Positions 46,956 to 63,854 of a stretch of 64,000 nt of DNA are shown in pieces; within the stretch, counting starts at the first letter, position 1; every line of letters begins with the position of its first letter. Under the pieces are notes generated by a model. That model had not been told where the DNA came from and ran no database searches. It was given only the letters and a program-made list of their open reading frames with translations. Source of the DNA: Pseudomonas violetae (GTDB lineage Bacteria; Pseudomonadota; Gammaproteobacteria; Pseudomonadales; Pseudomonadaceae); NCBI RefSeq assembly GCF_023072615.1, contig NZ_JAKNRW010000002.1:310001-374000 (forward strand), given 5' to 3'. Made by a program: the position numbers and the translations under genes.

Positions 46956-46972
46956 TTTGACGTAACGCACAT

Positions 46973-47007: not shown

Positions 47008-47037
47008 TATGTATTAAACCAATATCGATTGAAGAAC

Positions 47038-47847: not shown

Positions 47848-47853
47848 CTAGCG

Positions 47854-49344
47854 CTACCCTTTGGTACGCCACTCACCGGAGAACAATCCACGCTCTCGCG
47901 CCCACACGATAGCCTCGCTGCGGCTGTGCACATCGAGTTTGGAATAGAGGGTCGATACATGGTTGCGCACCGTGTTGGGTGCCAGTTTCAGTCGCGCAGC
48001 GATCTCCTTGTCGGCCAGGCCCTCACAAATCAGCCCCAGGACATCGCGCTCGCGGGCCGTCAGCTCGGCGAACGACACGCAGGGTAGTTTCGGCGAATTG
48101 ACGCTCTTCACATTGGCGAGCTTTTCAATCAGCGTACGACTGAACCATGAAGCGTCTTTCATCACTTCCTCGATCGCCGCCACCAGCTCCAGCTCAGTGC
48201 GCTTGCGCTCGGTAATGTCCATCATCACCAGCAGGTAGGAAGGGTAGTCCTGGATATTCACAGTGTCGGCCGAGACGGCGCAGTCGAGCAGTTCGGTGCT
48301 TTTCTTGCGCATGCCGACGTCGATGCGATCCAGCCTCGCGGATTTTTCCAGGGCGGCGAATAGTCGAGTCTGTGCGCCCTTGTCACTAATGAAGCCAATT
48401 TCCGCAACGGTTTTGCCGAGCACTTCTTCACTGGGATAGGCAAAGGTGTCGAGAAACGCTTCATTGACATCCATCACCACCTGATCAACGGCGCCACACA
48501 CCAGGATCGGCACCGGCGAGAGGCGAAATGCCTTGGCAAATCGTTCCTCGCTCTGGCGCAACGCGACCTCGGCCTTGTGCCGGGGCTCGATGTCGACAAA
48601 GGAAAACAGCATGCAGTCTTCCTCGTTGAATTCCAGTGGTTGGCCCGCGACTATCACCTGCTTGCTGCCGCCGTCGGGCAGATTCAGCTCGGCCTGCATT
48701 TGCGGAATGGTGGCGTGCTCGCGCAAGCGCTCAATAGCCAAGTCCCTGCGCTCGGCGCCTTCAAGAATGTCCAGCTCGTAGGTCGATGCGCCTATCACCT
48801 GATCCCGGGCATAGCCGGTCATTTCCAAAAAACCCGCATTGACCTTGATAAAGCGCAGATCGCTCAGACGGCAGATCACCGCCGGGGCCGGGTTGGCATT
48901 GAAGGTCTTTTCGAAGCGCTGTTCGGCGCTGGCCCATTCGGTGACATCGTCCATGATCAGTACCAACGATTCGGGATCGCCGCGACTGTTGGTCAGAACC
49001 CGGCTGCGCACGCTGTGCACCCAGGTACGCCCCTCATCGCCGGTGGGGGTCACCTCGACCAGCACGTCACTGAAGGTCTCGCCACGGCCCACGCGGCTGA
49101 TCGGATAATTGTCGAGCGCCACCGGGTGGTTGTTGCGATAGCGCAGGGCGAATCGCTTGGCGTACTCCATGGCATTGGCACCAAGGTCATTCACATGCTC
49201 GACACCATGCATAGACAGTGCGGCTTCGTTCGCCCAGAGGATAGTCTGGTCAAGCTCCAGCAAAATCACCCCGTCGGACAAGCCAGCGATGATCTGCTGG
49301 AGATGGCGGCGATTGGTTTCGGTGGTCAGGACGTCCTGGCTCAT
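47854..49344 (-). CDS. PAS-domain LuxR-type transcriptional regulator
   Basis: Soluble protein of 496 residues. Three PAS-like sensor domains fill about residues 10-135, 140-260 and 265-385. The LuxR helix-turn-helix is at the C terminus (about 430-490), beginning LTARERDVLGLICEGLADKEIA. No histidine kinase or receiver domain. It probably senses a small ligand or redox state through a PAS domain. The DUF1652 gene downstream is a possible target. Confidence 0.88.
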   Translation of the reverse strand: MSQDVLTTETNRRHLQQIIAGLSDGVILLELDQTILWANEAALSMHGVEHVNDLGANAMEYAKRFALRYRNNHPVALDNYPISRVGRGETFSDVLVEVTPTGDEGRTWVHSVRSRVLTNSRGDPESLVLIMDDVTEWASAEQRFEKTFNANPAPAVICRLSDLRFIKVNAGFLEMTGYARDQVIGASTYELDILEGAERRDLAIERLREHATIPQMQAELNLPDGGSKQVIVAGQPLEFNEEDCMLFSFVDIEPRHKAEVALRQSEERFAKAFRLSPVPILVCGAVDQVVMDVNEAFLDTFAYPSEEVLGKTVAEIGFISDKGAQTRLFAALEKSARLDRIDVGMRKKSTELLDCAVSADTVNIQDYPSYLLVMMDITERKRTELELVAAIEEVMKDASWFSRTLIEKLANVKSVNSPKLPCVSFAELTARERDVLGLICEGLADKEIAARLKLAPNTVRNHVSTLYSKLDVHSRSEAIVWARERGLFSGEWRTKG

Positions 49345-49452
49345 TGGATCTCCACTGATATATCCGCACCAACCCGTGGTGCTCTGTGAAGATGTCGACC
49401 GCAGCCGCCTGCGTTAGTGCAAACCAACCCCCGGGCCTGCGGACGAAGGCTG

Positions 49453-50349
49453 CTACGAAATGGTGTCGCCTTCGACGACTAACTCGCGCAACGTATCGAG
49501 GAACAGTTTCAGCACCGGCGATTCATCATCGGCGCGGTAGGTGGCATACAGCGGCACCTCTGGCAGTGCCGGACTCAAGCGGCGGAACACCAACCCGGCG
49601 GGCGCCAGCTGTTCGATCGATGCGGGCAGCAAGGCCACCCCGAATCCTGCGCGGACCAGGCTGAGCAGGGTCTGTACCTCGATCACCTGCTGGCGGATCT
49701 GCGGGGTGAACCCGGCCTTGATGCAACACTGGAAAAGAAAATCGGCAAACCTCGATTGCTTGAGCTCCAATGCCACGAACGGCTCTGCCGCCAGGTCGGC
49801 GGGCGCCAGCACTGTGCGTTGCGCCAGTGGGTGATCCACCGGCATGACCACCCGGATCGGCTCATAAATCAGCAGTTCGTTACGCAAGCCCGGATCGTCA
49901 TAACCGACCCGAAACACGCAGGCGTCAATGCGTTTTTCCTTCAAGGCCTTGACCTGTGCCGCCGGAGTCATTTCGTGCAAACGCCAATTGACCTGCGGAT
50001 AGCGCTCGCGAAACAGGTGCAGGGCCCGCGGCAGCACGCCCACCATTACCGAGCTGATCATACCGATCTCCAGTTCACCCAACTGTCCGCGACCGGTCTG
50101 GCGAGTCAGGTCCAGCGCGCGGTTCAGTTGTTCGAACACCAGGGGGGCCTGCTCCTTGAGCATTTGCCCCGCTGCCGTCAGTTCGACCCGATGGTGACTA
50201 CGCTCAAACAGCGGCGTACCGAGTTCTTCCTCCAGCAAACGAATCTGCTGGCTCAGTGGCGGCTGACAGATGTGCAACCGCGTGGCGGCCCGCCCGAAAT
50301 GCAGCTCTTCGGCCAGGGCCATGAAGTACCGCAGCAAGCGCAAGTCCAT
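49453..50349 (-). CDS. LysR family regulator, co-oriented with molybdenum hydroxylase genes
   Basis: Regulator of 298 residues. The N-terminal helix-turn-helix (about 1-62: LRYFMALAEELHFGRAATRL) and a QQIRLLEEELG stretch match the BenM/CatR-like LysR group that controls aromatic catabolism. It begins six bases after the large-subunit stop, so it is the third gene of the hydroxylase operon. A different LysR gene sits at the other end of that operon, facing away. Confidence 0.9.
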   Translation of the reverse strand: MDLRLLRYFMALAEELHFGRAATRLHICQPPLSQQIRLLEEELGTPLFERSHHRVELTAAGQMLKEQAPLVFEQLNRALDLTRQTGRGQLGELEIGMISSVMVGVLPRALHLFRERYPQVNWRLHEMTPAAQVKALKEKRIDACVFRVGYDDPGLRNELLIYEPIRVVMPVDHPLAQRTVLAPADLAAEPFVALELKQSRFADFLFQCCIKAGFTPQIRQQVIEVQTLLSLVRAGFGVALLPASIEQLAPAGLVFRRLSPALPEVPLYATYRADDESPVLKLFLDTLRELVVEGDTIS

Positions 50350-50355
50350 GACCGT

Positions 50356-52560
50356 TTACCCGAGCGTCAGTGGCGTCGAGCGCTGACGCACGCCAGTCAG
50401 GCTGAACAGCGCGTTGGCGATGGCCGGGGCCACCGACGGGCTGCCCAACTCACCTACGCCGCCGGGTTTGCCCGGCTCGCCGTCGAGCACCAGGATGTCT
50501 ACCTGCGGCATGTCGGACATGCGTGGCACCCGGTAATCATGGAAGTTACTCTGCACTACCCTGCCCTGCTTGATGTCCATGCGGTCGAACAGCGCATGAC
50601 CAAGCCCCCACATCAAGCCGCCGTAGATTTGTTCCTCGACACCACCTGGCGACACTGCCAGACCGCAATCGACCACGCACGTGAGCTTCTCCACATGAGC
50701 CACTCCGTCTTTTATGGCCACCCGCGCCACCACTGCGATGAAGCTGGTGTAGCCTTGATTGGTGGCAATCCCCAGCGCCGTGCCCTCCGGCAGCGGCTGG
50801 CCCCATCCCGCACGCTCGGCCGCACTTTTCAGCACCGCAACGTGACGCGGCCGCTCGTGCATGTGGGCAAGCCTGAAGCCTAGAGGATCCTGTCCAGCCC
50901 CCAGTGCAAGCTCGTCCATGAAGCTTTCCACGGCAAACACGTTCGGGATGAAGCTCACCGAGCGATACCAGCCGCTCGGCACCTGGCTTTCGTGTTTAAC
51001 CCAGACCAGGTCCAGGTTCGCCGGGCGATAGGCAAAGTCCCACGCGGTGAGCGCTTCGGTGGTGCTGTAGTCCATGTGGTCGGGACGTTCAAAATAGCCC
51101 GGTTCCCACTGCTCCGGCGAGGCCGGCGACACGGCTTCAAGGCGCAAGGCCGTCAGGCGGCCCTGGGCGTCCAGTGCGCCTTTTGCTCTGTGCAACGTGG
51201 CGGGGTGCATGAACAACGAGCGCATTTCATCTTCACGGCTGTTCATCAACTTCACCGCAACCTTGGCCTGTTGCGCCAGGTACGCCACTTCGAACAACCA
51301 GTACTTGGCCTCCCGTGCGCCGAAGCTGCCGCCGGAGACCATCTCGTTGATGGTGACCTTCTCCTTGTTGATGCGGCACACCATTTGCGCCGCCTCCAGT
51401 GCCGAAGACGGCACCTGCACACCGCCCCAATAGGTGATGGCGTTGTCCTTGACCTGGGCGGTGATGCACACCGGTTCCAATGGGTTCTGCACTTTGTAGG
51501 GCATGCGGTATTCGGCCTCCAGCAGCCGTGTTGCGCCTGACCATTGAGCGTTGACATCACCCGTCTGCATCGCCGTGACCCGTTGCACGGTTTTATCAGC
51601 GAGTGCCGCCGCCTGGGCTGCGGCCAATTGCTCGCTGTCGAACCCGGCGAGGGGCGAATCGCTCCACTGCACTACCAGCAGCGCCCGGCCCTGCTGGGCT
51701 GCCCAGTAAGTGTCGGCCAAGACCGCGACGCCTTCCTGATTGCCGCCGAGTACGTCGGGACGACCGGGAATCGCGATCACCTTGCGCACACCCGGCACCT
51801 GTAATGCTGCGGCGTCATCCACCTTCACGACCTTCGCCCCGACCACGGGGGTGCGCAGGATCACCGCCACCAACAGGTCGGGCAATTGCACATCGATGCT
51901 GTACTTGAAACGTCCGCAAACCTTAGCCGCCGCATCGCGTTTATGGCGCAACTTGCCGATGTATTTGAACTGTGCCGGGTCCTTGAGTTTGACGGCCGTG
52001 GGCGCTGGCAAGTGCGCGGCGACACTGACCAGCTCGCCGTACCCCAGGCTGCGCTGGCTGGCACTGTGAACAACATGGCCCTCCTGGGTGGTGCAGCTGT
52101 CAGGGCTGACCTTCCACTGCCTCGCCGCCGCCGAGATCAACAACGCCCGTGCAGTGGCTCCAGCCATGCGCAGGCGATCATATTCCAGCGAAACACTGGT
52201 GCTACCCCCGGTGGAAAAGACTTTCCATACCGGATGAATATAGGCTTCAAAGAACGGATTTTCCGGCGTAATGACCTGCACGGTCATCGGGTTGACGTCC
52301 AGCTCCTCCGCCACGCAGGCGGCCAGCGCGGTCTGGGTACCGGTCCCCGAATCATGTTTGTGGACCACCAACTTAACGGTGCCATCGGGCAGTACCCTCA
52401 CCCAGGCATTTGGCTCAAAGGCCATGGCGGGAGCCGGCGCTTTCGGGTCACTGGCGGCCATGCCAGCGGGCAGGTAGAACGCCACTGCCAGGCCGGCAGC
52501 AGCGGTCGCTGAATGTTTGAGAAACTGCCGGCGCGGCAGCTCGATCCGAATGCCCGTCAT
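50356..52560 (-). CDS. Molybdenum hydroxylase large subunit (second system)
   Basis: Xanthine-dehydrogenase-family molybdopterin subunit, 734 residues. A twin-arginine signal (LPRRQFLKHSATAAAG) starts it, so export in folded form is expected. Molybdopterin-binding GGSFGAREAKYW near 405 and catalytic Glu in GGVGELGSPSVAP near 705 are present. It overlaps the small-subunit stop (ATGA at 52560). Unlike the system at 28289, no cytochrome gene accompanies it and no FAD subunit exists, so its electron acceptor is unknown. Substrate may belong to the divergent catabolic cluster. Confidence 0.88.
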   Translation of the reverse strand: MTGIRIELPRRQFLKHSATAAAGLAVAFYLPAGMAASDPKAPAPAMAFEPNAWVRVLPDGTVKLVVHKHDSGTGTQTALAACVAEELDVNPMTVQVITPENPFFEAYIHPVWKVFSTGGSTSVSLEYDRLRMAGATARALLISAAARQWKVSPDSCTTQEGHVVHSASQRSLGYGELVSVAAHLPAPTAVKLKDPAQFKYIGKLRHKRDAAAKVCGRFKYSIDVQLPDLLVAVILRTPVVGAKVVKVDDAAALQVPGVRKVIAIPGRPDVLGGNQEGVAVLADTYWAAQQGRALLVVQWSDSPLAGFDSEQLAAAQAAALADKTVQRVTAMQTGDVNAQWSGATRLLEAEYRMPYKVQNPLEPVCITAQVKDNAITYWGGVQVPSSALEAAQMVCRINKEKVTINEMVSGGSFGAREAKYWLFEVAYLAQQAKVAVKLMNSREDEMRSLFMHPATLHRAKGALDAQGRLTALRLEAVSPASPEQWEPGYFERPDHMDYSTTEALTAWDFAYRPANLDLVWVKHESQVPSGWYRSVSFIPNVFAVESFMDELALGAGQDPLGFRLAHMHERPRHVAVLKSAAERAGWGQPLPEGTALGIATNQGYTSFIAVVARVAIKDGVAHVEKLTCVVDCGLAVSPGGVEEQIYGGLMWGLGHALFDRMDIKQGRVVQSNFHDYRVPRMSDMPQVDILVLDGEPGKPGGVGELGSPSVAPAIANALFSLTGVRQRSTPLTLG

Positions 52561-53024
52561 CACGCCTCCTTCGGCGCATTCGCTGCGCGCTTGATCGCCT
52601 TGTTGATGCGCCCGTAAGTGCCGCAGCGACACAGGTTGCCCGACATCGCGTGGCGGATCGACTCATCGGTGACCGCCGCCCCGGTGTTGAGCAGCGCCGC
52701 CGCTGACATGATCTGGCCGGATTGACAGTAGCCGCATTGCGGGACATCTTCGGCAATCCAGGCCAGTTGCAGCGGATGCTGCTCGGTGGGCGACAAGCCT
52801 TCGATGGTTGTGATGCTGTGCCCCGCCACTGCGGCGGCCGGTAGCTGGCAGGAACGCACCGCGACCCCGTCAAGGTGCACAGTGCAGGCTCCGCACAGCC
52901 CCATGCCACAGCCGAACTTGGTGCCGGTGAGTTTCAAGTGGTCACGCAACACCCATAACAAGGGCATGGAGGGCGAAGTCTCTACCAGCTCGTGTCGTTC
53001 GCCGTTTACCGTGAATTCGATCAT
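52560..53024 (-). CDS. [2Fe-2S] small subunit of molybdenum hydroxylase (second system)
   Basis: Iron-sulfur subunit of 154 residues. First cluster motif [12 protein letters not shown] near 40-50, second CGYCQSGQ and CRCGTYGRI at about 100-140. The start [15 protein letters not shown] at ATG 53024 matches the family. Translationally coupled with the large subunit. A divergent LysR gene begins 119 bases away, suggesting shared control DNA. Confidence 0.9.
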
Positions 53025-53142
53025 TGTCAGGCTCCAAAAGAGCGGCCCATCTTTGTGCGGGCCTGGTGATCGAATAGTGGGAACAGGAGGCCAAACGGGC
53101 CAGCGACGATTTCTGCCATCTTGTGTAAGTAGGACTAACAGC

Positions 53143-54033
53143 ATGTACAAGCGATACCCATCGGTACAGTCCATGAGCGCATTCATCCAGGCCGCGCGCA
53201 GCGGCAGTTTTTCCAGCGCCGCGCGCAAACTCGACCTGACCCACAGCGCCATCAGCCAGCAGATCCGTTCCTTGGAAGACTTCATCGGTCAGCCGCTGTT
53301 CGTGCGCGAAGGCGGCGGCAGCAATCTGACCGACGCAGGACAGTTGTTCGCCAGCGTGCTGTCCGACGGCCTGGCACAAATCGACCGGGCATTGTCTTCG
53401 GTGAAGAACCGCAGCGTGGCGCAAAGACTGACGATCGATGTGGACAGCGAACTGGCCCAGAGCTGGCTCAATCCACGCCTGCCCGAGCTCCTGGATTTAC
53501 TGCCCGGGCACGAGGTGGTGCTGCTGTCGATGCCGCGCTCGGACCGCAGCTCGTTCGAGCGGGTGGACCTTGCGCTGCGGTATGGCTATGGCGACTGGGA
53601 AGACTGCGAGATGACGCAGATCTGCGGTGACCGGGTCATGGCAGTGGCTTCGCCCGGGCTGCTTGAACGGCAGGGTCTGCAGGTGCCGATGACGCCGGCG
53701 CAGGTGTTGCAATTGCCGTTGCTGGGGTACACGCGCCGGTCGTGGATTCCCTGGCTGGATGCGGCTGGGATGACGCCCACTGAACCGGCGGCACGGGTTA
53801 TTTTTGACAATGCGGCGAACCTGATTGCAGCGGCTGAAGCGGGGGTCGGTGCGGGGTTGGTGCGCGGGCTGTTGGCAGCCGATGCGTTGCGTGCGGGGCG
53901 ATTGGTTGAACTGAACACGGCGCAGATCCCGGCGCATTACAACTTGTATGCGGTGTGGCCGCCGGGACAGGCCGAGCGCGTGGCGCCGGTGGTTGAGGTG
54001 ATCCAGCAATTGGCGTTGCGTACACAATCCTGA
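53143..54033 (+). CDS. LysR family regulator (GcvA-like), divergent from the hydroxylase
   Basis: Regulator of 296 residues. Helix-turn-helix at about residues 5-65 ([20 protein letters not shown]), then an effector domain. Sequence style resembles the GcvA subgroup. The frame opens further upstream, but ATG 53143 fits the family. It is divergent from the molybdenum hydroxylase and co-oriented with the catabolic cluster starting at 54361, so it may control either or both. Confidence 0.88.
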
Positions 54034-54037
54034 CGCT

Positions 54038-54130
54038 ATCGCGGGCAAGCCCACAGGTTTTTGTGGTGTGTCGTAAAGTGGGTTGACACCATCGATCACT
54101 GTGGGAGCTGGCTTGCCAGCGATGAGGCCC
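54038..54130. repeat. Degenerate REP-type copies after the LysR gene
   Basis: A truncated copy (ATCGCGGGCAAGCCCACAGG, 54038-54057) and a fuller inverted copy (GTGGGAGCTGGCTTGCCAGC, 54101-54120, continuing to 54130) face each other. Confidence 0.75.
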
Positions 54131-54163
54131 GCCCAGTCAATACGAAACCATATCGAACGCATA

Positions 54164-54213
54164 TCACCCCCCCGTCCAATTAATATTGTACGAACCTCAC
54201 CCCCCCTTCCAAT
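54164..54213. promoter_or_regulatory. Direct repeat TCA-C7-KTCCAAT upstream of the catabolic cluster
   Basis: A 17-base word occurs at 54164-54180 and 54197-54213, 16 of 17 bases identical, with a 33-base period (about three helical turns). AT-rich DNA separates the copies. It lies 150-200 bases upstream of the first structural gene, so it is a candidate activator site or promoter element. Confidence 0.5.
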
Positions 54214-54360
54214 ACTCCTCCCCAAGCAGCCAGCGTCCCGAGCCGGATGCGACCAGGCGAGGGAATGCGCAGTCACCTGCGCATAGAAATGGCCGATTGC
54301 CCGGACGTGGCTGCTAGCGAACCGCAAGGTTCCCTTTCCGCTATCAGGAGATCGACTTCA

Positions 54361-55290
54361 ATGATCATCGATATCAGCTGCTATCCCACCGATCTGGTGG
54401 ACCTCGCCTGGAGGCATGACGGTGACCCGTTCACCGGCGAGCGTCTGCTGGAGATGATGGATGGCCCGTACATGGTCAACGGCAAACCTCGCCGCATCGA
54501 CAAAGCCTTCATCCAGCCACCCCAGGGCAACACCATCTACACCTGGACCGACGGCGACCTGACAGGTCGCGAGTCCATCGACGCTTACATGGCCTACACC
54601 CTGAAGATGGTCCAGACCTACCCCGACCGATTCATCGGCTGTTTCGTCTACAACCCGCGCTGCGGAGTGCAGAACGGCGTCGAAGCGATCGAGCGCTACG
54701 TCAAGGAACACGGGTTCAAGATGGTGCAGATGCAGGCGAACATGCATGCCTATCGCCCGGACCGAGCGCTGGACTGGGTGCGTCCGGCCTTCGAGAAATG
54801 CGCCGAGCTAGGCATCCCGGTCAAGCTGCACACCGGCGACGGCCCCTACAGCATCCCGTCGGAGTGGGTGCCGATGATCAAGGAATTCCCCAACGTCGAT
54901 TTCATCATGGCGCACTTCGGCGTGCAGACCGGCGGCGTCTATGTGTTCGAGCCGATGCAATGGGCGATGGAGTTGCCCAACGTCTACTGCGAATCCGGCT
55001 GGTGCCTGCAATCGCGGATCGTCGAGTTCGCCAAGGTGCTGCCAACCCACAAGATCCTCTTCGGCACCGACACCCCGCCGAACGAACCGGGCATGTGGCT
55101 GCGTCTGCTGGAAGTGCTGTGCCACGAACCGCCGCAGGGCCTCAACCTGGACGAGGACACCCTCGAGGAATACCTGGGCAACAACACCGCCCGGATGATC
55201 GGCCTCGAACCGACCCCGCCGCCGCGTTCCGTTTCCGAAGCAGAGGCGCAACTCAAGCGCCCCGTCACCACCCAACTGGCCAGGAGCTGA
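54361..55290 (+). CDS. Amidohydrolase_2 family protein lacking the HxH metal motif
   Basis: TIM-barrel protein of 309 residues, close paralogue of the next gene. The N terminus reads MIIDISCYPTDLVDLAW, where the neighbour has MIIDTHLHPTNLVDEAW: the two metal-binding histidines are Ser6 and Tyr8. Other expected ligands remain: His in KLHTGDGPY near 165, His in MAHFGVQ near 188, and Asp in GTDTPPNEPG. Family members include ACMSD-type decarboxylases and hydrolases. AGGAG precedes ATG 54361. Probably a partner subunit or a changed active site. Confidence 0.87.
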   Translation: MIIDISCYPTDLVDLAWRHDGDPFTGERLLEMMDGPYMVNGKPRRIDKAFIQPPQGNTIYTWTDGDLTGRESIDAYMAYTLKMVQTYPDRFIGCFVYNPRCGVQNGVEAIERYVKEHGFKMVQMQANMHAYRPDRALDWVRPAFEKCAELGIPVKLHTGDGPYSIPSEWVPMIKEFPNVDFIMAHFGVQTGGVYVFEPMQWAMELPNVYCESGWCLQSRIVEFAKVLPTHKILFGTDTPPNEPGMWLRLLEVLCHEPPQGLNLDEDTLEEYLGNNTARMIGLEPTPPPRSVSEAEAQLKRPVTTQLARS

Positions 55291-55294
55291 ATCG

Positions 55295-56200
55295 ATGATC
55301 ATCGACACCCATCTGCACCCCACCAACCTGGTCGACGAGGCCTGGCGCCACACCGGCGAACCGTTCACCGGCGAGCGCATGCTCAAGCTGATGGACGGCC
55401 CCTACATGATCAACGGCAAACCTCGCCGTATCGACATGGGTTTCATCCAGCCGCCACCGGGCAACACCGGTTATCGCGACGGTAACCGCCGTGGCCGCGA
55501 AGGCGTGCGCGACTACATGTCGTACATTGCCGAACTGTGTGTGAAGTACCCGGATCGCTTCATCGGCAACTTCAACTTCAACCCACGCTGGGGACCGGAA
55601 AACGGCGCCGCGGAGCTGGAATTCCACATCAAGGAATACGGCTTCAAGATGCTCAAATTGCACGCCAACATGCACGGTTATCGTCCCGACCGTGCGCTGG
55701 ACTGGCTACGCCCGGCGATGAAGGTCTGCGCCAAGTACAACATTGTGGTGCTGATCCACACCGGCGACGGCCCGTACACCATCCCGACGATGTTCTACCC
55801 GATCATCCGCGAGTTTCCGATGGTCAACTTCATCATCGGTCACTTCGGCATCCAGACCGGCGGCAACTACTCGTTCGAAGCGTTCTGGATGGCGATGGAC
55901 ACACCGAACGTGTACTGCGAATCCGGTTGGTGCTTCCAGTCGCGGATCGTTGAGTTCGCCAAGGAACTGCCGCGCAACAAGATCGTGTTCGGCACCGACT
56001 CGCCACCCAACGAACCCGGCATGTGGCTGCGCGAACTGGAAGTGCTGTGCTCGCCTGCGCCGCAGGGCCTGGGCATCGATGAGGATCACCTCGAGGACTA
56101 TCTGGGCAACAACATTGCCCGGTTGTGCGGCATAGAACCGACACCGCCACCCAAGGACCTGATCGAGGCGGACATCCGCCTGACCACTACTTACCTCTAA
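55295..56200 (+). CDS. Amidohydrolase_2 family protein (decarboxylase/hydrolase)
   Basis: Metal-dependent TIM-barrel enzyme of 301 residues with the intact HxH motif (H6, H8) and the later ligands His (LIHTGDGPY, about 152), His (IGHFGIQ) and Asp (GTDSPPNEPG). Belongs to the PF04909 group with ACMSD, LigW and isoorotate decarboxylase, which decarboxylate aromatic or heteroaromatic acids without a cofactor. The start is four bases after the paralogue's stop and its ribosome site lies in that gene, so both are made together. Reaction not assignable. Confidence 0.88.
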   Translation: MIIDTHLHPTNLVDEAWRHTGEPFTGERMLKLMDGPYMINGKPRRIDMGFIQPPPGNTGYRDGNRRGREGVRDYMSYIAELCVKYPDRFIGNFNFNPRWGPENGAAELEFHIKEYGFKMLKLHANMHGYRPDRALDWLRPAMKVCAKYNIVVLIHTGDGPYTIPTMFYPIIREFPMVNFIIGHFGIQTGGNYSFEAFWMAMDTPNVYCESGWCFQSRIVEFAKELPRNKIVFGTDSPPNEPGMWLRELEVLCSPAPQGLGIDEDHLEDYLGNNIARLCGIEPTPPPKDLIEADIRLTTTYL

Positions 56201-56240
56201 AGCAAAACATCGCTGTTCATTGAAGGAATGCAGCATCTTT

Positions 56241-56331
56241 GTGGCGAGGGAGCTCGCTCCCGCTGGGTGGCGAAGCCGCCCCAGAAGAAGGGCCTGCTGC
56301 GCAGGCCAGCGGGAGCAAGCTCCCTCGCCAC
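56241..56331. repeat. Inverted repeat pair inside the catabolic cluster
   Basis: GTGGCGAGGGAGCTCGCTCCCGCTGG (first 20 given by 56241-56260) faces its near-complement at 56306-56331. The loop holds a second palindrome GGCCTGCTGCGCAGGCC (56291-56307). The 283-base gap between the amidohydrolase and UbiD genes contains little else. Confidence 0.8.
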
Positions 56332-56483
56332 TGGGATTCCTCTGGTAGAAGGTGAACAGCACCGGCAACACAGCGACTTTACAGGCGCGAAGATGAACCG
56401 GCGTTCGCTCGACCGGCAGGCCAACGGCTTGTCGATCAAACGCCACCTCACCCCTGCGTGCCTGCTTTTTACGAGGTGAAACC

Positions 56484-57869
56484 ATGACCGTTTCGACGCT
56501 CGGCGATACCCAGGATTTCCACGTTTTCATCGACGCTTATCGCCGGCAGTACCCGGACGATGTGCTGACCATTCACGACGCCCTGAGCGCCGACCAGGAC
56601 GTCACCGCGCTGGTCGATGCCCTCGCCACCCAGGGCCGCGATCCGCTGCTGATCTGCGAACAGGTCGGCAACCTTGGCGTACCGGTAGCCACCAACCTGT
56701 TCGCTTCCCGCAGCCGGATCGCCCGGATCTTCGGCGTTACCCCGGCGCTACTGCACGAGACTTTCCAGGCCCGCGCCAACCAGCCCATCGCCCCGCGCTA
56801 CGTCGAAACCGGACCGGTGCTGGACGAGATTTTCGAAGGCGAGGCAGTGGACCTGGCGTTACTGCCGATGCTCAAGCACTTCGACAGCGACCGCGGCCCC
56901 TATGTCACCAACGCGATCATCATTGCCGAGGACCCGGTGACCGGCATTGCCAACATGAGCTATCACCGTTCCATGCGCCATGCCCGGCAGACCCTCGCCA
57001 CCAGCCTGCATTCACGGGGTCACCTGTGGCGCATGCTGCAAACCGCCAGGGAACGCGGGGAAGAGTTGCGCGTGGCCATGGTAGTCGGTGCCCATCCGCT
57101 GTTCATGCTCGCCGCCGCCGCCAGGTTGCCTTTTGGCAGTGATGAGCGTGCAGTCGCCGGCGGCTTGTTCGGCGCACCGCTGGAACTGGTCAAGACCCCA
57201 CGCTATGGCATCGGCGTGCCAGCTTTCGCCGAATTCGTGCTCGAAGGCGCGATCGACCCGGCGGCCTATGCCGAAGAAGGTCCGTTTGGCGAGTTCAGCG
57301 GCTATTCCTCGGATCGTTCGACCAACAACGTACTGCGCGTCGACACCCTGATGCGCCGCAAGGATGCCTGGCTGGTGGACGTGGTCGGCGGACGTTATGC
57401 CGAACACCTGACCCTGGCGCGCCTGCCCCGGGAAGCGGAAATGAGCGAAAAATTGAAGGCACGTTTTCCCGCCGTCACTGCCGTGCACTACCCCAATTCC
57501 GGTACGCATTTTCATTGCTACGTGGCCCTGGACCAGAGCCGTGACGGCGAGGCACGGCAGATCATGCTCGCGCTGCTGGGCTGGGACCCGTACCTGAAAA
57601 CGGTCATCGCAGTGGACAGTGACATCGACATCGTTGACGACAGCCAGGTGCTCTGGGCATTGGCCACGCACTTCCAGCCGCATCAGGACATCTTCGTGAT
57701 CGACGGCTTGCCCGGCAGCCCCCTGGACCCTTCGTCCTCGGTCAACGGCACCACCTCGCGCATGGGCCTGGATGCCACCCGCGGCGCAGGGTTCGACGGC
57801 ATCAAGGCGCAACTCGACCCGGCCGTCATGGAGCGCGCATGCAACCTGCTGCAGGGTTACCCGTCATGA
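56484..57869 (+). CDS. UbiD family prenylated-FMN decarboxylase
   Basis: Decarboxylase of 461 residues that uses prenylated FMN, made by UbiX, to remove CO2 from unsaturated or aromatic acids. Recognisable family blocks are NMSYHRSMRH near 155-165 (cofactor and metal contacts) and the EEGPFGEFSGY motif near 265-275 bearing the catalytic glutamates. Length is shorter than ubiquinone UbiD (about 490) and fits the broader catabolic UbiD class. The following UbiX gene overlaps its stop by four bases, so enzyme and cofactor supply are coupled. Confidence 0.92.
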   Translation: MTVSTLGDTQDFHVFIDAYRRQYPDDVLTIHDALSADQDVTALVDALATQGRDPLLICEQVGNLGVPVATNLFASRSRIARIFGVTPALLHETFQARANQPIAPRYVETGPVLDEIFEGEAVDLALLPMLKHFDSDRGPYVTNAIIIAEDPVTGIANMSYHRSMRHARQTLATSLHSRGHLWRMLQTARERGEELRVAMVVGAHPLFMLAAAARLPFGSDERAVAGGLFGAPLELVKTPRYGIGVPAFAEFVLEGAIDPAAYAEEGPFGEFSGYSSDRSTNNVLRVDTLMRRKDAWLVDVVGGRYAEHLTLARLPREAEMSEKLKARFPAVTAVHYPNSGTHFHCYVALDQSRDGEARQIMLALLGWDPYLKTVIAVDSDIDIVDDSQVLWALATHFQPHQDIFVIDGLPGSPLDPSSSVNGTTSRMGLDATRGAGFDGIKAQLDPAVMERACNLLQGYPS

Positions 57870-58513
57870 ACCGCCAGCGCCTGGTGGTCGGCATCAGTGG
57901 CGCGTCAGGGTTTATCTACGGCGTGCGCCTCCTGGAGTTGCTGGCGCAGCTCAACATCGAAACGCATCTGGTCATCAGCCGAGCGGCCTTGCTGACCATG
58001 GCCCATGAAACCGACTACAAGCTGGCGGACGTCATTGCCCTGGCCAGTCACTACCACCGCGCCGACGACGTCGCGGCGGGCATCGCCAGTGGCTCGTTTC
58101 GGTGCCTGGGCATGGTGGTGGCGCCTTGTTCCATGCGCACCCTGGCGGAGATCGCCACCGGCACCTCCGCCGGCCTGATCGGACGCGCCGCCGACGTGAC
58201 CTTGAAGGAACGCCGCACACTGGTGCTGATGGCCCGGGAAACACCGCTGACCCTGGCGCACCTGCGCAACATGACTGCCGTCACCGAGATGGGCGGGATC
58301 ATCGCTCCACCCGTCCCGGCGTTTTACGCCCGCCCACAAAACCTTGGGCAAATGGTCGATCACAGCCTTGGCCGAGTCCTCGACCTGTTCGGCCTCGACG
58401 CCGGCACAGCGTTGCGCTGGGGTGAAACCGACCTTCATTCATTCAAAAACAAAACCTGTGGGAGCGAGCTTGCTCGCGATGAGGCCGCAACAGCCAGCAT
58501 AGAAATCGGCTGA
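57866..58513 (+). CDS. UbiX family flavin prenyltransferase with repeat-encoded tail
   Basis: Makes prenylated FMN from FMN and dimethylallyl phosphate for the UbiD partner. FMN-binding GISGASG is at about 9-15, VVAPCSMRTLAEIATG near 88-103 and the RETPLTLAHLRNM block near 130. ATG 57866 overlaps the UbiD stop. The last 20-25 residues (about KTCGSELARDEAATAS) are encoded by a dispersed GTGGGAGCGAGC repeat, extending the normal protein (about 195-209 residues) to 215. Confidence 0.92.
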   Translation: MNRQRLVVGISGASGFIYGVRLLELLAQLNIETHLVISRAALLTMAHETDYKLADVIALASHYHRADDVAAGIASGSFRCLGMVVAPCSMRTLAEIATGTSAGLIGRAADVTLKERRTLVLMARETPLTLAHLRNMTAVTEMGGIIAPPVPAFYARPQNLGQMVDHSLGRVLDLFGLDAGTALRWGETDLHSFKNKTCGSELARDEAATASIEIG

Positions 58514-58548
58514 TCCAACGCCATCGCGAGCAGGCTCGCTCCCACAGT
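58456..58548. repeat. Inverted REP-type pair overlapping the UbiX 3' end
   Basis: Copies at 58456-58480 (CTGTGGGAGCGAGCTTGCTC and following) and 58522-58548 (ATCGCGAGCAGGCTCGCTCC and following) face each other. The first copy is inside the UbiX reading frame; the second is in the gap before the GTPase gene. Confidence 0.88.
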
Positions 58549-58586
58549 GCGAGTACCCCGACCCCTTGGTTTCAAAGGAGCATCAC

Positions 58587-59624
58587 ATGAACAGCCCATT
58601 CAACGCCCCAACCCCGAACCGCAAGATCCCGGTGACCATCCTGACCGGCTTCCTCGGTGCCGGTAAAACCACCCTGCTCAACTACATCCTCAAGGAAAAC
58701 CACGGGCGAAAGATCGCCGTGATCGAAAACGAATTCGGTGAGGTCGGGATCGACGGCGACTTGGTCCTCAGTTCCGAAACCGAGGAAATCTACGAGATGG
58801 TCAATGGATGCGTGTGCTGCACCGCCGAGGTCCGCGAGGACCTGGTGCGCATCGTTCGCGAACTGGTAGCGCGCCCGGTGCGGCTCGACCACATTCTGAT
58901 CGAGACCAGCGGCCTGGCCGACCCGTACCCTGTAGCACAGAGCTTTTTCATCAACGATCCCATCGCCGATGAAGTGGAACTGGATGCGATCGTCACCATG
59001 GTCGATGCCAAGCACATCGCCCAGCACCTGGAAGACCTGCAACTCGACGGCGTCGACAACCAGGCGGTGGACCAGATCGTCTGTGCCGACCGGATCGTGA
59101 TCAATAAAGTCGATCTGGTGAGCAGCGCTGAGGTGCATGCATTAAGCGAAAAAATCCGTGGATTGAACGCGACTGCGGATTTGGTGACCTCCAACTATGC
59201 CGAAATCGATCTGACCAAAATTCTCGGCATCGGCGCCTTCGAGTCCACGCAAAAGCTCATGGAAATCGGTGCCGAACATGGTCATCACGCCGAAGACCAT
59301 CACCACGATCTGGATCACGACCACGACCCCAGCGTCTCGTCGGTGGGCATTGCCGTGGACGGCGCGGTGAACCTTGGCGCGTTCCATCGCTGGATCAGCG
59401 AGCTGCGCACTGCACAGGCAGACAACCTGTACCGCATGAAAGGCGTACTGGCGGTGCAGGACCAGGATCAGCGCTACGTGCTGCAGGGCGTGCACAGCCT
59501 GGTGGAATTTCGCGCATCAACCCTGTGGGGCACCGAACCGCGCTCCAGCAAGATCGTGTTCATCGGCCGCGACCTGGACCGCGCGGCCCTGAACCAGGGC
59601 TTTGCCGCCTGCCTGGCAGGCTGA
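58587..59624 (+). CDS. COG0523/CobW family GTPase (metallochaperone-like)
   Basis: G3E-family P-loop GTPase of 345 residues. Walker A GFLGAGKTT is near 22-30, the metal-binding CxCC motif is in NGCVCC near 73, and GTP specificity motif NKVD near 172. A histidine-rich loop (about 232-250) reads EHGHHAEDHHHDLDHDHD. Such proteins insert or supply zinc, cobalt or iron to client enzymes. Its place between UbiX and permease genes suggests service to the cluster's amidohydrolases or other metal enzymes. AAGGAG precedes ATG 58587. Confidence 0.9.
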   Translation: MNSPFNAPTPNRKIPVTILTGFLGAGKTTLLNYILKENHGRKIAVIENEFGEVGIDGDLVLSSETEEIYEMVNGCVCCTAEVREDLVRIVRELVARPVRLDHILIETSGLADPYPVAQSFFINDPIADEVELDAIVTMVDAKHIAQHLEDLQLDGVDNQAVDQIVCADRIVINKVDLVSSAEVHALSEKIRGLNATADLVTSNYAEIDLTKILGIGAFESTQKLMEIGAEHGHHAEDHHHDLDHDHDPSVSSVGIAVDGAVNLGAFHRWISELRTAQADNLYRMKGVLAVQDQDQRYVLQGVHSLVEFRASTLWGTEPRSSKIVFIGRDLDRAALNQGFAACLAG

Positions 59625-59635
59625 AACAACGGCAT

Positions 59636-59659
59636 CGGAGCCGGTGGATGGCGGCTCCG
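59636..59659 (+). other. Stem-loop before the permease gene
   Basis: Perfect 8-bp stem CGGAGCCG/CGGCTCCG with an eight-base loop, 11 bases after the GTPase stop and not followed by a T run. May slow or process the transcript between the two genes. Confidence 0.5.
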
Positions 59660-59715
59660 GGCACATCGCACGAATACCCCTCTCTACAGCATAAAAACAG
59701 CAAGAGGTGATTCCC

Positions 59716-61071
59716 ATGTCGTCAGCCACTCCCCCTTCAACTATCCACCCGGTCGACCAGGTACTGCCGGTCCGCCAAATGCTCACCCTCGGCCTGCAAC
59801 ACATGGCCGTCTCGTACATCGGCGCCATCGCCGTGCCGTTGATTGTCGCCAGCGCCTTGAAAATGTCCCAGGCCGATACCGTGGTGTTGATCAGCACCAC
59901 GCTTTTCTGCTCGGGCATCGCCACGCTGTTGCAAACCGTGGGCTTTTGGAAATTCGGCGTGCGCCTGCCAATTCTGCAGGGCGTGGCCTTCAGCAGCGTC
60001 GGCCCGGTGATCGCTATTGGCAGCAACCCGGAGGTGGGATTTGCCGGGGTTTGCGGAGCGGTGATCGGCGCCGGGATCTTCACCATGCTGGTCGCGCCCT
60101 TCGTCGGCCGATTGCGGCGCTATTTCCCGCCGGTGGTCACCGGCTGCATCGTCACCGTGATCGGCCTGCAGTTGTTCCCGATTGCCTACGAGTGGGTCGG
60201 TGGCGGGCGTCATGCCAGCGATTTCGGCGCACCAGCGTATTTGGCCGTCGCCGCCGTGGTGCTGTTGACCATCCTGCTGGTCAACCGCTACGGCAGCCCG
60301 ATGCTGCGCAACATGGCGATGCTGGTGGGCATGCTGGTGGGTGCGGGGCTGGCCTACGGCCTGGGCATGGGCAGCTTCAGCAGCGTCGGCGATTCGCCCT
60401 GGCTCACCGTGCCCTACCCGTTCTACTTCGGCCTACCGACCTTCAGCCTGATCCCGATCGCGACCATGGTGGTGGTGATGATTGTGCAGATGGTCGAATC
60501 AATGGGGCTGTTCGTCGCGATCGGTGACATCGTCGACAAACCTGTGGAAGAAAAACAGGTGATCAACGGCCTGCGCGCCAACGGCCTGGCGAGCACCATC
60601 GCCGGCATGTTCGCCGCGTTCCCGTTCATTGCCTTCATGGAAAACGTCGGCCTGGTGATCCTCACTGGCGTGCGCAGTCGGTGGGTGGTAGCGATCAGCG
60701 GCTTGCTCATGTGCAGCGTGGCCCTGGTGCCCAAGGCCGGGGCAATCATTGCCTCGATGCCGACTGCTGCCCTCGGCGGTGCCGGGATCGCGATGTTCGG
60801 AGTGGTCGCGGCCGCCGGCATCCAGACCCTGGCCAAGGTCGACTACGAGCGCAATCGCTACAACGTGCTGATCGTAGGGTTCACCATCGCCGCCGCCCTG
60901 GTGCCGGTGCTGGCCCCGGCGCTGTTCAAGCAACTGCCCGAGTGGAGCCAGCCGTTCCTGCACAGCAGCGTGGTGATCGCGTGCCTGGTATCGGTGCTGC
61001 TCAACGCAGCGCTCAACGGCGTCAGCGCTCCTGACAGCGCCGCCACCAAACCAGCCTCCCACAGCCTCTGA
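59716..61071 (+). CDS. NCS2 family nucleobase permease
   Basis: Inner-membrane importer of 451 residues, about 14 helices. The QMVESMGLFVAIGDIV stretch near 255 is the helix-8 substrate region of NCS2 (xanthine, uric acid, uracil) permeases, and GLQHM near 27 is also typical. The transport class points to a purine-, pyrimidine- or pteridine-like substrate for the cluster. ATG 59716 has AGAGGTG upstream; a GTG at 59707 is less likely. The deaminase gene follows 12 bases after the stop. Confidence 0.92.
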   Translation: MSSATPPSTIHPVDQVLPVRQMLTLGLQHMAVSYIGAIAVPLIVASALKMSQADTVVLISTTLFCSGIATLLQTVGFWKFGVRLPILQGVAFSSVGPVIAIGSNPEVGFAGVCGAVIGAGIFTMLVAPFVGRLRRYFPPVVTGCIVTVIGLQLFPIAYEWVGGGRHASDFGAPAYLAVAAVVLLTILLVNRYGSPMLRNMAMLVGMLVGAGLAYGLGMGSFSSVGDSPWLTVPYPFYFGLPTFSLIPIATMVVVMIVQMVESMGLFVAIGDIVDKPVEEKQVINGLRANGLASTIAGMFAAFPFIAFMENVGLVILTGVRSRWVVAISGLLMCSVALVPKAGAIIASMPTAALGGAGIAMFGVVAAAGIQTLAKVDYERNRYNVLIVGFTIAAALVPVLAPALFKQLPEWSQPFLHSSVVIACLVSVLLNAALNGVSAPDSAATKPASHSL

Positions 61072-61083
61072 CCGGAGATACTC

Positions 61084-62472
61084 ATGACTCAACTTCAAAA
61101 TATCCTGATCAAAAACCCGCAGGCAGTGATGACCGGCTTGCGCGGCGAACGCGCCCGGGCTGGTAGCGTCGACATCCGCGTGGTCAACGGGCGCATTGCC
61201 GAAATGGCTGCCGGCCTGCAGGCGCAACCTGGGGAAAAAGTAATCGACGCGCGCCATTGCCTAGTGTATCCGGGCTGGATCAACACTCATCATCACCTGT
61301 TCCAGAACCTGCTCAAAGCCGTGCCCGAGGGGTTGAACCAGGACCTGCAAGGATGGCTCGCGAGCGTGCCATACCCGCGCCTCAACCGTTTCACCCCGCA
61401 GCTGTCACGCATTGCCGCGCGGCTGGGCATGGCCGAGTTACTGCTGTCGGGGGTGACGACCTGCGCCGACCATCACTACCTGTACCACGCCCACGGCACC
61501 ACCGAGACCGGTGATCTGCTGTTCGACATGGCGGACGAATTCGGCTTGCGCTTCGTGCTGTGCCGAGGAGGTGCCCTGGAGTCGGCGAGTGCGCACCCCG
61601 GATTTTCAAAAACCGCGCTGCAGCCGGAGTCGCTGGAGCAAATGGTCGGTGACATCGAGCGCCTGAAATCGCGCTATCACCAAGACATCCCGGACGCCAT
61701 GCGCCGGGTCGTGGTGGCGCCGACCACCCCCACCTTTTCGCTCCCCCCCACTCTGCTGCGCGAACTGGCTCATACGGCTCGTGGCCTTGGCCTGCGCCTG
61801 CACACGCACCTGTCGGAGACGCAGAACTACGTTAATTTCTGCCGCGAAAAATACAATTGCCTACCGGTTGAGTTCGTCGCTGAACACGAATGGCTCGGCC
61901 CGGATGTCTGGTTCGCCCACGCAGTACACTTGCAACCTGGCGAGATCCGCATGCTCGCGCAGACGGGCACCGGCGTTTCCCACTGTCCGGTGAGCAACGC
62001 GCGCCTGGGTAGCGGTATTGCGCCAGTGCCACAGATGGCCGAGGCCGGCGTGCCGATATCCCTCGGCGTCGATGGCGTGGCGTCTAACGAGTCTGGGAGC
62101 ATGGTCGGTGAAGCGAATACCGCGTGGCTGATTCACCGGGCCGAACAAGGTGCTGGCGCGACCACCGCCGAAGACGTGATTCATTGGGGCACTGCCGGCG
62201 GCGCTCGGGTACTGGGGCTCGGTGCAGTGGGCACGCTGGAGATCGGGCAGGCAGCGGACCTGGTCATCTACGGCCTGAATCACCCGCGTTTCTTCGGCTT
62301 CCACGACCTGGCGGTGGCGCCTGTGGTCGCCGGCGAACCGATCGCCGTGCGCTACAGCCTGGTGGGTGGCCGGGTGGTGGTGGATGACGGAGTGATACCG
62401 GGCCTGGACCTGGAGCGCATGCGCGCCGAAGCGTGGGAAGGTGTGCAGCAATTGATGCACGTCGACGACTGA
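61084..62472 (+). CDS. Amidohydrolase, 8-oxoguanine/guanine-type deaminase-like
   Basis: Metal-dependent deaminase of 462 residues in the COG0402 group (8-oxoguanine, isoxanthopterin, atrazine chlorohydrolase-like). Metal site HxH is in INTHHHLFQ near 68-70; later ligands appear in HTHLSET near 240 (His), FAHAVHL near 278 and GVDGVASNESGS near 328 (Asp). It removes an amino group from a ring such as guanine or pterin. It is the last gene of the cluster. Exact substrate cannot be assigned. Confidence 0.88.
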   Translation: MTQLQNILIKNPQAVMTGLRGERARAGSVDIRVVNGRIAEMAAGLQAQPGEKVIDARHCLVYPGWINTHHHLFQNLLKAVPEGLNQDLQGWLASVPYPRLNRFTPQLSRIAARLGMAELLLSGVTTCADHHYLYHAHGTTETGDLLFDMADEFGLRFVLCRGGALESASAHPGFSKTALQPESLEQMVGDIERLKSRYHQDIPDAMRRVVVAPTTPTFSLPPTLLRELAHTARGLGLRLHTHLSETQNYVNFCREKYNCLPVEFVAEHEWLGPDVWFAHAVHLQPGEIRMLAQTGTGVSHCPVSNARLGSGIAPVPQMAEAGVPISLGVDGVASNESGSMVGEANTAWLIHRAEQGAGATTAEDVIHWGTAGGARVLGLGAVGTLEIGQAADLVIYGLNHPRFFGFHDLAVAPVVAGEPIAVRYSLVGGRVVVDDGVIPGLDLERMRAEAWEGVQQLMHVDD

Positions 62473-62480
62473 CCACAACC

Positions 62481-62566
62481 CCTGTAGGAGCTGCCGCAGG
62501 CTGCGATCTTTTAGCAGTATTCAAAGCTGCCAAAAGACGCAGGCTTCGCCAGCGCCTACAAGGGTC
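62481..62566. repeat. Inverted pair of GGCTGCGATCTTT-family repeats
   Basis: CCTGTAGGAGCTGCCGCAGG onward (62481-62513) faces a diverged copy in the other direction (about 62528-62566, core AAGACGCAGGCTTCGCCAGC). The pair separates the convergent deaminase and hydrolase genes. Confidence 0.78.
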
Positions 62567-62570
62567 GCAT

Positions 62571-63854
62571 TCAAGCTGCCAGTTGCCTGCGCGCAATCGC
62601 CGCCGAAGCCGCCAGCATTGCCCGCAACAACACCGCACACCCCGCCGCCAGGTCATCCGGTGCAGCGTTTTCGATTTCGTTGTGGCTGATACCCCCTTCG
62701 CACGGCACGAAGATCATCCCCGCGGGCCCCAGTTCGGCAAGGAAGATCGCGTCATGCCCAGCACCGCTGACAATGTCCATGTGCGACAGACCCAGGCCTT
62801 GCGCGGCATTTCGCACCGCTTCAACACAGCCCTGCTCAAAATACAGTGGTGGGAAGTCGGCGGTGGGCGTCAGCTCGTAGCTCAGGCCATGCTTCTGGCA
62901 AGTGGTTTCTATCACCTGACGAACCTCGGCAATCATCGAATCCAGGCGGGCCGGTTCCAGATGCCGAAAATCCAGGGTCATGCGCACTTCGCCAGGAATG
63001 ACATTTCGCGAGCCGGGATAAGCTTGCAGACAACCGACCGTGCCACAGGCGTGCGGTTGATGACCTAGAGCCGCACTGTTGACCGCCCCGACGATGATGG
63101 CGGCACCGACCAGAGCGTCCTTGCGCAAGTGCATCGGCGTCGGCCCGGCGTGGGCTTCGACGCCGCGCAACTTCAGGTCAAACCACTTCTGCCCCAAGGC
63201 GCCCATGACCACGCCGATGGTCTTGTGTTCGTCCTCAAGAATCGGGCCTTGCTCGATATGCGCTTCAAAATAGGCGCCGACCGGATGGCCGCTGACTTTG
63301 CGCGGGCCGGCATAGCCGATGGCATTGAGTGCTTCGCCCATGGTGATTCCGTCGGCATCGACTTTGGCCAGGGTTTCCTCCAACGTGAATTTTTCCGCGA
63401 AGACTCCGGAGCCCATCATGCACGGGGCGAAGCGCGAGCCCTCTTCGTTGGTCCAGACCACCACTTCCAGCGGCGCCTCGGTTTCCACGCCGAGATCGTT
63501 GAGGGTCCGCAGCACTTCGACACCGGCCAGCACACCAAAGCAGCCGTCGAACTTGCCGCCGGTGGGCTGGGTGTCGATGTGGCTGCCAGTCATCACTGGA
63601 GGCAAGTCCGGATTGCGCCCGGGACGGCGGGCAAAAATATTGCCGACACCATCGATGCTCACCGTGCAACCCGCCTCTTCGCACCATTTGACAAAGATAT
63701 CGCGGGCCTGACGATCGAGGTCAGTCAGGGCCAGGCGACAGACGCCGCCTTTGACCGTGGCGCCGAGCTTGGCCAGCTCCATGAGCGACTGCCACAGGCG
63801 GTCGCGGTTGATGTGCTGATGGGTGGACTGCAGAACGTCTACAGCAGCGTTCAT
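62571..63854 (-). CDS. N-carbamoyl amino acid hydrolase (beta-ureidopropionase/allantoate amidohydrolase, M20 family)
   Basis: Zinc-dependent amidohydrolase of 427 residues. M20 motifs are clear: GSHIDTQPTGGKFDG near 90, NEEGSRF near 135, HIEQGPILE near 200 and a terminal HNEIENA near 390. The length and sequence fit the N-carbamoyl-beta-alanine amidohydrolase of the reductive pyrimidine pathway, which releases CO2, ammonia and beta-alanine; allantoate hydrolases are similar. It is convergent with the deaminase and begins 147 bases from the window end. Confidence 0.88.
   Translation of the reverse strand: MNAAVDVLQSTHQHINRDRLWQSLMELAKLGATVKGGVCRLALTDLDRQARDIFVKWCEEAGCTVSIDGVGNIFARRPGRNPDLPPVMTGSHIDTQPTGGKFDGCFGVLAGVEVLRTLNDLGVETEAPLEVVVWTNEEGSRFAPCMMGSGVFAEKFTLEETLAKVDADGITMGEALNAIGYAGPRKVSGHPVGAYFEAHIEQGPILEDEHKTIGVVMGALGQKWFDLKLRGVEAHAGPTPMHLRKDALVGAAIIVGAVNSAALGHQPHACGTVGCLQAYPGSRNVIPGEVRMTLDFRHLEPARLDSMIAEVRQVIETTCQKHGLSYELTPTADFPPLYFEQGCVEAVRNAAQGLGLSHMDIVSGAGHDAIFLAELGPAGMIFVPCEGGISHNEIENAAPDDLAAGCAVLLRAMLAASAAIARRQLAA

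Follow-up and report, generated by a model that had tools for sequence, protein, structure and literature searches.

A conserved pair of tandem amidohydrolases, one without the HxH motif, as a candidate for the ring contraction of tetrahydroxypteridine

The DNA analysed here (the window) is a stretch of 64,000 nucleotides from Pseudomonas violetae (assembly GCF_023072615.1, contig NZ_JAKNRW010000002.1, positions 310,001 to 374,000 of the forward strand), and our subject is a pair of tandem amidohydrolase genes in it, whose first and second copies we call by the working names AmhA and AmhB. Both are on the plus strand and encode PF04909 proteins, AmhA (54361–55290) of 309 residues and AmhB (55295–56200) of 301 residues. 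AmhB begins MIIDTHLHPT, with D-T-H-L-H intact, whereas AmhA begins MIIDISCYPT; its residues 4–8 (plus strand, 54370–54384), at the place of the DxHxH, read D-I-S-C-Y. The original prediction, made from the window alone, held that the first copy lacks the HxH and that the genes are coupled, and the translations (SCY vs HLH) and the four bases between the AmhA stop TGA (55288–55290) and the AmhB ATG (55295) bear this out. An AGGAG, noted by eye, lies close to the 3′ end of AmhA, upstream of AmhB. PF04909 (Amidohydro_2) is the sole Pfam match of both proteins, scoring 136 bits for AmhA and 160 bits for AmhB against a curated cut-off of 26.4, and the alignment starts at model position 26 in AmhA and at position 1 in AmhB. 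At an E value of 0.001 no NCBIfam model matched either protein. Besides the pair, four more PF04909 matches occur in the window genome (6.45 Mb, 92 contigs).

A scan of named genomes with an AmhA alignment from which residues 1–20 had been removed gave 293 related stretches, and the best 80 were kept as loci, 42 of them from Pseudomonas. Since the query lacked residues 1–20, S-C-Y was not selected for. An HxH was found in none of the 80 AmhA starts, which read MIIDISCYP in 59 loci, MIIDTSCYP in 19, and VIIDISCYP and MIIDIGCYP in one each; position 6 is Ser in 79 and Gly in 1, and position 8 is Tyr throughout. The Ser and Tyr that the original prediction proposed to look for in homologous pairs are thus conserved. 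AmhB starts with MIIDTHLHP in 80/80 loci, and H6 and H8 are present in all 77 rows used for AmhB site counts (L102, at a contig end, and L112 and L124, open for 258 residues only, were dropped). The 75 distinct AmhA rows fall into 16 lineages when grouped at 93% identity, 15 with SCY and 1 with GCY.

The two genes occur together in 80/80 loci, spaced by −1 to 52 nt; in L102, AmhB is represented by its first 44 residues before the contig end. The pair is widespread among soil bacteria. The nearest named loci to the window are from Pseudomonas (96–100%), and the other genera are Marinobacterium, Crenobacter, Ralstonia, Pandoraea, Ramlibacter, Pseudoduganella, Massilia, Comamonas, Cupriavidus, Paraburkholderia, Ochrobactrum/Brucella and Paracoccus. 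In all eleven plasmid loci fetched, AmhA carries SCY and AmhB carries HLH, with MIIDLSCYP as the AmhA start in Ensifer, Shinella and Ponticoccus, and 91 plasmid records hold 182 match places, two in each. The same SCY and HLH accompany 15 distinct AmhA sequences, the window's included, in another genome set. The pair was found in 13 of 149 genomes of a genus sample, with two matches in each positive, and in 4 of 398 genomes of a phylum sample, counting the window's own. It was not found in viral contigs, nor by a profile search at E 1e-25 among 385 genomes of the class of G342, a set without a known positive. A local mutation, a sequencing error or a decaying pseudogene, for none of which any support was found, is refuted by the S-C-Y or G-C-Y in 80/80 loci, by S-C-Y in the further copies and by open frames of about 300 residues, and we give such explanations practically no weight. 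What was predicted as a degenerate paralogue kept beside an intact one has never been seen without its partner (80/80 loci, 91 plasmid records, 13 genomes). One damaged locus was noted: in L112 (Brucella cytisi), AmhB is open for 258 residues only and its neighbours are in short frames, through assembly error or decay.

We then compared the barrel centres. The claim that all later metal ligands are kept holds for His157, His185 and Asp237, which are present in 80/80 AmhA sequences, as are their counterparts H155, H183 and D235 in 77/77 AmhB rows, but other positions of the centre have changed, and the loss is not of just the HxH. On strand β-4, AmhA has Q-M-Q (residues 123–125, plus strand, 54727–54735) where AmhB has K-L-H; on strand β-5 it has K-L-H (residues 155–157, plus strand, 54823–54831), in which Lys155 stands at the place of AmhB Leu153 and His157 is kept. 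The swaps are therefore S6/Y8 for H6/H8, Q123/Q125 for K121/H123 and K155 for L153, and strand parity suggests that an inward-facing Lys was shifted from strand 4 to strand 5. Q123, Q125 and K155 are invariant in AmhA, as is Arg219. The 80/80 count for Gln125 is partly built in, because this residue is part of QANMHAY, one of two patterns used in the search. With fixation defined as more than 97% in each protein (75 distinct rows for AmhA and 53 for AmhB, in addition to the window), 26 columns are fixed differently between AmhA and AmhB. Eight of these fall on seven barrel strands (36 residues) that we chose from the AmhA model (hypergeometric p 0.005); the derived AmhA positions they carry are S6, C7, A49, C94, Q123, Q125, K155 and M183. 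Over 51 loci, mean identity is 0.868 for AmhA and 0.899 for AmhB, with AmhA the lower in 1065 of 1275 pairs. AmhA is changing somewhat faster than AmhB, yet its centre is nearly invariant, and judged by its residues the site looks rebuilt or repurposed, not decayed.

A nearly invariant site, and the enrichment of derived positions on the chosen strands (8/26, p 0.005), would also be expected if AmhA and AmhB were separate enzymes that catalyse consecutive steps and form no complex, AmhA being metal-free or using another site made of K155, H157, H185, D237, S6 and Y8. The pair has not been seen apart and its gene spacing is short in all 80 loci, which speaks against separate enzymes, and we find this arrangement quite doubtful. 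AmhA and AmhB probably form a complex.

In a tree of 38 rows, a single branch with support 100/100 parts the 19 AmhA from the 19 AmhB sequences, so the split predates the spread of the pair. A tree that included five distant PF04909 rows was rejected: the branches of these five were 4.5 to 10 long, and neither AmhA nor AmhB formed one side of a branch. As the tree was rebuilt without outgroups, it does not fix the root between the two. Of the outgroup sequences found, L128 is the nearest (E 6.5e-24). It has DAHMH, a β-4 Lys and a β-5 Leu, all AmhB-like, and among the 26 fixed-difference sites it shares the AmhB residue at 5 and the AmhA residue at 1; the later of the two histidines in HMH lies outside the aligned column, and the polarity is read from this one sequence. 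Given the DAHMH of L128, AmhA is likely the derived copy, in which the HxH was lost.

The genes that follow the pair on the plus strand encode a UbiD-family decarboxylase (56484–57869), a UbiX-family flavin prenyltransferase, which makes the UbiD cofactor (57839–58513), a COG0523/CobW-type GTPase and putative metal chaperone (58584–59624), an NCS2 transporter of the xanthine-permease type (59707–61071; TIGR03173 over its cut-off) and a COG0402-type deaminase (61084–62472; closest solved chain 2paj). UbiD scores 284.8 bits with TIGR00148 against a cut-off of 244.85, also matches Pfam PF01977, PF20695 and PF20696, and has PtHmfF (6h6v) as its nearest solved relative. On the minus strand, on the other side of the pair, lie the molybdopterin subunit of a xanthine-dehydrogenase-like enzyme (50356–52632), whose NCBIfam matches are all under their cut-offs and which has, by eye, a twin-arginine-like leader, and the 2Fe-2S subunit of that enzyme (52560–53024, with the Met before IEFTVNG taken as start; the longer open reading frame is 52560–53285).

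AmhA, AmhB and UbiD stand next to one another in 79/79 loci that include this DNA, with the UbiD start no more than 700 nt downstream of AmhB; the 80th is cut. The other genes were counted from tblastn matches that covered half of the query at E 1e-15, a tally in which paralogues can count and more distant enzymes with the same job can be missed. Among the 59 loci that are 20 kb or longer, UbiX and the COG0523 GTPase were each obtained in 57 and the NCS2 permease in 52; the window-type deaminase, Fe-S subunit and molybdopterin subunit were in 50, 47 and 42, respectively. Gene order differs between Pseudomonas and Ralstonia, Comamonas and Massilia, and the Alphaproteobacteria, and thus the genes have kept company through rearrangement. 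Molybdenum-hydroxylase genes lie within the cluster in Pseudomonas, Ralstonia, Burkholderia, Sinorhizobium, Ensifer, Shinella and Ponticoccus; in the last four, the enzyme is of the three-subunit xanthine-dehydrogenase type, accompanied in Ensifer and Shinella by an XdhC protein. In Comamonas, the molybdenum hydroxylase of the cluster has three subunits, and an ABC transporter of the BMP type is also encoded there. Elsewhere in the window genome, a protein exceeds the cut-off of the xanthine dehydrogenase model with 1302 bits.

The deaminase bears on the substrate. Among PDB chains, the best match of the window protein is 2paj (459 bits), followed by 3hpa (299 bits), and the Comamonas protein (L111), 48% identical to it, matches 2paj with 490 bits against 220 for the next. 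We take 2paj to be isoxanthopterin deaminase, reportedly the enzyme described by Hall et al. in 2010. In the part of the source drawn on, enzymes of this type are said to act on isoxanthopterin and pterin-6-carboxylate (PMC5270733). A cytosine-deaminase-type amidohydrolase is present in 7 more of the 59 long loci (in L112 only a piece), which brings either type to 57/59, and this second type is also found in 6/11 plasmid loci. All 13 alphaproteobacterial loci (7 from the scan, 6 on plasmids) have it instead of the window type, with partial matches in L112 and L040. L108 and L122, which lack either type in the locus, encode 50% and 69% relatives of the window deaminase elsewhere in the genome.

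In the genus sample, a deaminase 92–100% identical to that of the window is present in 13/13 genomes with the pair and in 0/136 without it, counts that do not represent independent events, since the genes are carried as one block. The 136 pair-less genomes yielded one 172-residue piece at 87%, and ten of them have a relative at 52–54%, so genomes with this type of deaminase need not have the pair. Five of those ten were fetched (L148–L152), and no member of the trio was found within about 10 kb of the deaminase relative, which perhaps serves another oxidised-purine or pterin route in these genomes. In L149 the relative adjoins a Rieske oxygenase, an NMT1-type ABC transporter and a Tsx-like channel.

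A cluster dedicated to another heterocycle, such as 8-oxoguanine or another oxidised purine or a pyrimidine, would explain several purine-like features, namely the NCS2 xanthine-type permease, the xanthine-dehydrogenase-type enzymes and the BMP-type ABC transporters of some clusters, and 8-oxoguanine deaminase is among the deaminase relatives. The window genome, however, has another gene, G000:C42, for a relative of the deaminase (40%, 300 bits) that scores as 8-oxoguanine deaminase does, while for the cluster deaminase the lead of 2paj is 160 bits in the window and 270 in Comamonas. Known purine chemistry, moreover, needs no ring contraction or decarboxylation before urate. On balance we consider a substrate other than a pteridine unlikely.

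McNutt and co-workers are said to have traced, in the 1960s in Alcaligenes faecalis, a route in which isoxanthopterin is deaminated to violapterin and oxidised to 2,4,6,7-tetrahydroxypteridine, which is isomerised to xanthine-8-carboxylate and decarboxylated to xanthine. The ring contraction is presumably the reaction of tetrahydroxypteridine cycloisomerase, EC 5.5.1.3, for which we know of no gene. EC 5.5.1.3 appears among the orphan activities of a 2007 list, in the consulted part of which it is ranked 'difficult' (PMC1940265). The cluster has no other candidate gene for this step of the route, and the pair has no other job; for these reasons we propose AmhA and AmhB for the ring contraction. 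Our reading of the whole, to which we give a probability of roughly one half, is that AmhA and AmhB form a heteromeric ring-contracting enzyme and that UbiD carries out the decarboxylation. The sequences, their conservation, the genes around them and the class of fold were observed directly; the complex, the substrate and the reaction are inferred.

In the proposed route, the NCS2 protein would import the substrate, and the cluster deaminase, together with the cluster's own molybdenum hydroxylase, would convert isoxanthopterin or a like pterin to tetrahydroxypteridine. AmhA and AmhB would then open one lactam of the pyrazine ring of 2,4,6,7-tetrahydroxypteridine by hydrolysis, and closure with loss of water would form the imidazole of xanthine-8-carboxylate, so that the whole amounts to an isomerisation without net water. 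AmhB would hold the metal site, with a metal that the COG0523 GTPase may load, and AmhA would be an obligate sister subunit with a rebuilt centre (S6, Y8, Q123, Q125 and K155) in which H157, H185 and D237 are kept. UbiD, with prenylated flavin mononucleotide from UbiX, would convert xanthine-8-carboxylate to xanthine, which would pass to the ordinary xanthine dehydrogenase encoded elsewhere in the genome. PtHmfF is a furan-dicarboxylate decarboxylase according to the part of the source used (PMC8988006), and a relative that acts on a five-membered heteroaromatic acid suits xanthine-8-carboxylate. A division of labour within the pair, in which AmhB with its metal hydrolyses the pyrazine lactam and AmhA, without the HxH metal, closes the imidazole, seems distinctly unlikely to us; here AmhA, with its Lys moved from β-4 to β-5, would hold the opened aminouracil and drive the dehydrating closure.

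The predicted structure of AmhA (predicted local distance difference test score, pLDDT, 81; predicted template-modelling score, pTM, 0.86) matches 2dvt with Z 23.7 and a root-mean-square deviation of 2.6 over 253 residues, and 4ign, human ACMSD, with Z 22.0, a likeness of fold that says nothing of function; the solved chains listed are 10–21% identical to it. Lower in the list are a hydratase, lactonase-type hydrolases and isoaspartyl dipeptidase. Because the nearest folds are mostly decarboxylases, AmhB might itself be a metal-dependent decarboxylase of the ACMSD/gamma-resorcylate type, with AmhA as an inactive partner that shapes the dimer. AmhB would then take the carboxylate of either xanthine-8-carboxylate or pteridine-6-carboxylate and UbiD the other, and a gene outside the cluster would contract the ring. 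A dimer partner can matter in such enzymes, as the title of PDB entry 4ifk calls an arginine from the neighbouring subunit essential, and 2paj-type enzymes are said to act on pterin-6-carboxylate as well (PMC5270733, the same partial source). The sequence of AmhB is nevertheless remote from those of the solved decarboxylases (5-carboxyvanillate decarboxylase comes closest, with E 8.5e-6), and adjacent decarboxylases in 79/79 loci would leave the cluster without a gene for ring contraction. A decarboxylating AmhB is in our view the main rival to the proposed reading, if a rather unlikely one.

Several points weigh against a ring-contracting pair in a pterin route. None of the solved folds nearest AmhA, mostly those of decarboxylases, is ring-contracting, and to our knowledge UbiD chemistry has no precedent at a carbon between two nitrogens. 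By half-query matches, 17/59 long loci lack the molybdopterin subunit and 12/59 the Fe-S subunit; some loci without the window-type molybdopterin subunit, such as L111, have more distant three-subunit enzymes. Of the nine genomes without a window-type deaminase in the locus, two have the 50% and 69% relatives elsewhere, three have a 40–42% relative only and four have none at E 1e-30; seven of the nine carry the second type, whose link to pterins is conjectural. In Marinobacterium nitratireducens (L089), AmhA and AmhB modelled as one read-through chain gave pTM 0.50 and pLDDT 66.5 from 11 rows, a result of low confidence that speaks neither for nor against the complex. A search of the open-licence literature found no paper on the ring contraction, and for xanthine-8-carboxylate and related terms only an unrelated metabolomics paper.

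Nor did any paper listed from the open-licence literature on pterin and folate catabolism, UbiD or amidohydrolases assign these genes. An orthologue of Arad3529 deaminates folate and pteroate, according to part of a report (PMC9513972) in whose main text amidohydrolase, xanthine, decarboxylase and cluster do not occur. The portion consulted of the 2009 survey of COG0523 (PMC2770081) makes no mention of amidohydrolase, xanthine, UbiD, pterin or decarboxylase.

Among characterised relatives, the ACMSD/amidohydrolase-2 decarboxylases (gamma-resorcylate decarboxylase, LigW, IDCase and ACMSD) share PF04909 with AmhA and AmhB. As far as is known, these are homo-oligomers with HxH, whereas the present system is a pair with one member lacking it. 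A second likeness is to pseudo-dihydroorotase (pDHO) of Pseudomonas aspartate transcarbamoylase, which belongs to a different amidohydrolase family from AmhA and AmhB. This inactive paralogue from the amidohydrolase superfamily is needed for its partner's activity, as stated in the part of the source used (PMC7053772). An inactive amidohydrolase relative required by an active enzyme is thus already known; what differs is that pDHO supports an enzyme of another fold, the transcarbamoylase, while AmhA is found next to its own sister and has a centre that looks rebuilt and is nearly invariant.

If the proposal is right, a gene pair would be in hand for an orphan enzyme activity described in the 1960s, and a bacterial route from pterins to the purine pool would be closed. 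Pterins are relatives of folic acid, and their sources include folate and insect and algal pigments. The pair would also be a clear case, among metallo-enzymes, of an obligate association of an intact sister with one that has no HxH site. Should the two steps be split between the subunits, it would be an instance of metal-free catalysis in a metal-hydrolase barrel paired with a metal-bearing sister.

Other features of the region were recorded. A LysR-type regulator adjoins the pair (plus strand, 53101–54033), and a second one is at 49453–50349 on the minus strand. A second gene of the molybdenum-hydroxylase type, with a weak match to the xanthine dehydrogenase model, is at about 28796–30418 (minus strand). 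At 62571–63854 (minus strand) the translation resembles, by eye, an N-carbamoyl amino acid hydrolase; a relative is present in only 22/80 loci, and the gene is therefore probably outside the unit. Beside the deaminase, Ensifer (L154:5305–6093) and Shinella (L156:5297–6097) have a gene annotated 'aldolase', which might act on a pterin side chain. No Rfam family reached its gathering score in window positions 44000–64000, and a scan of 54000–62700 for promoters and terminators gave counts no higher than in shuffled sequences. The gap between AmhB and UbiD, whose length varies among Pseudomonas loci, contains in the window an imperfect inverted repeat (56241–56331) with two 42-nt arms that are 83% complementary, and this looks like a Pseudomonas REP element, a label of our own.

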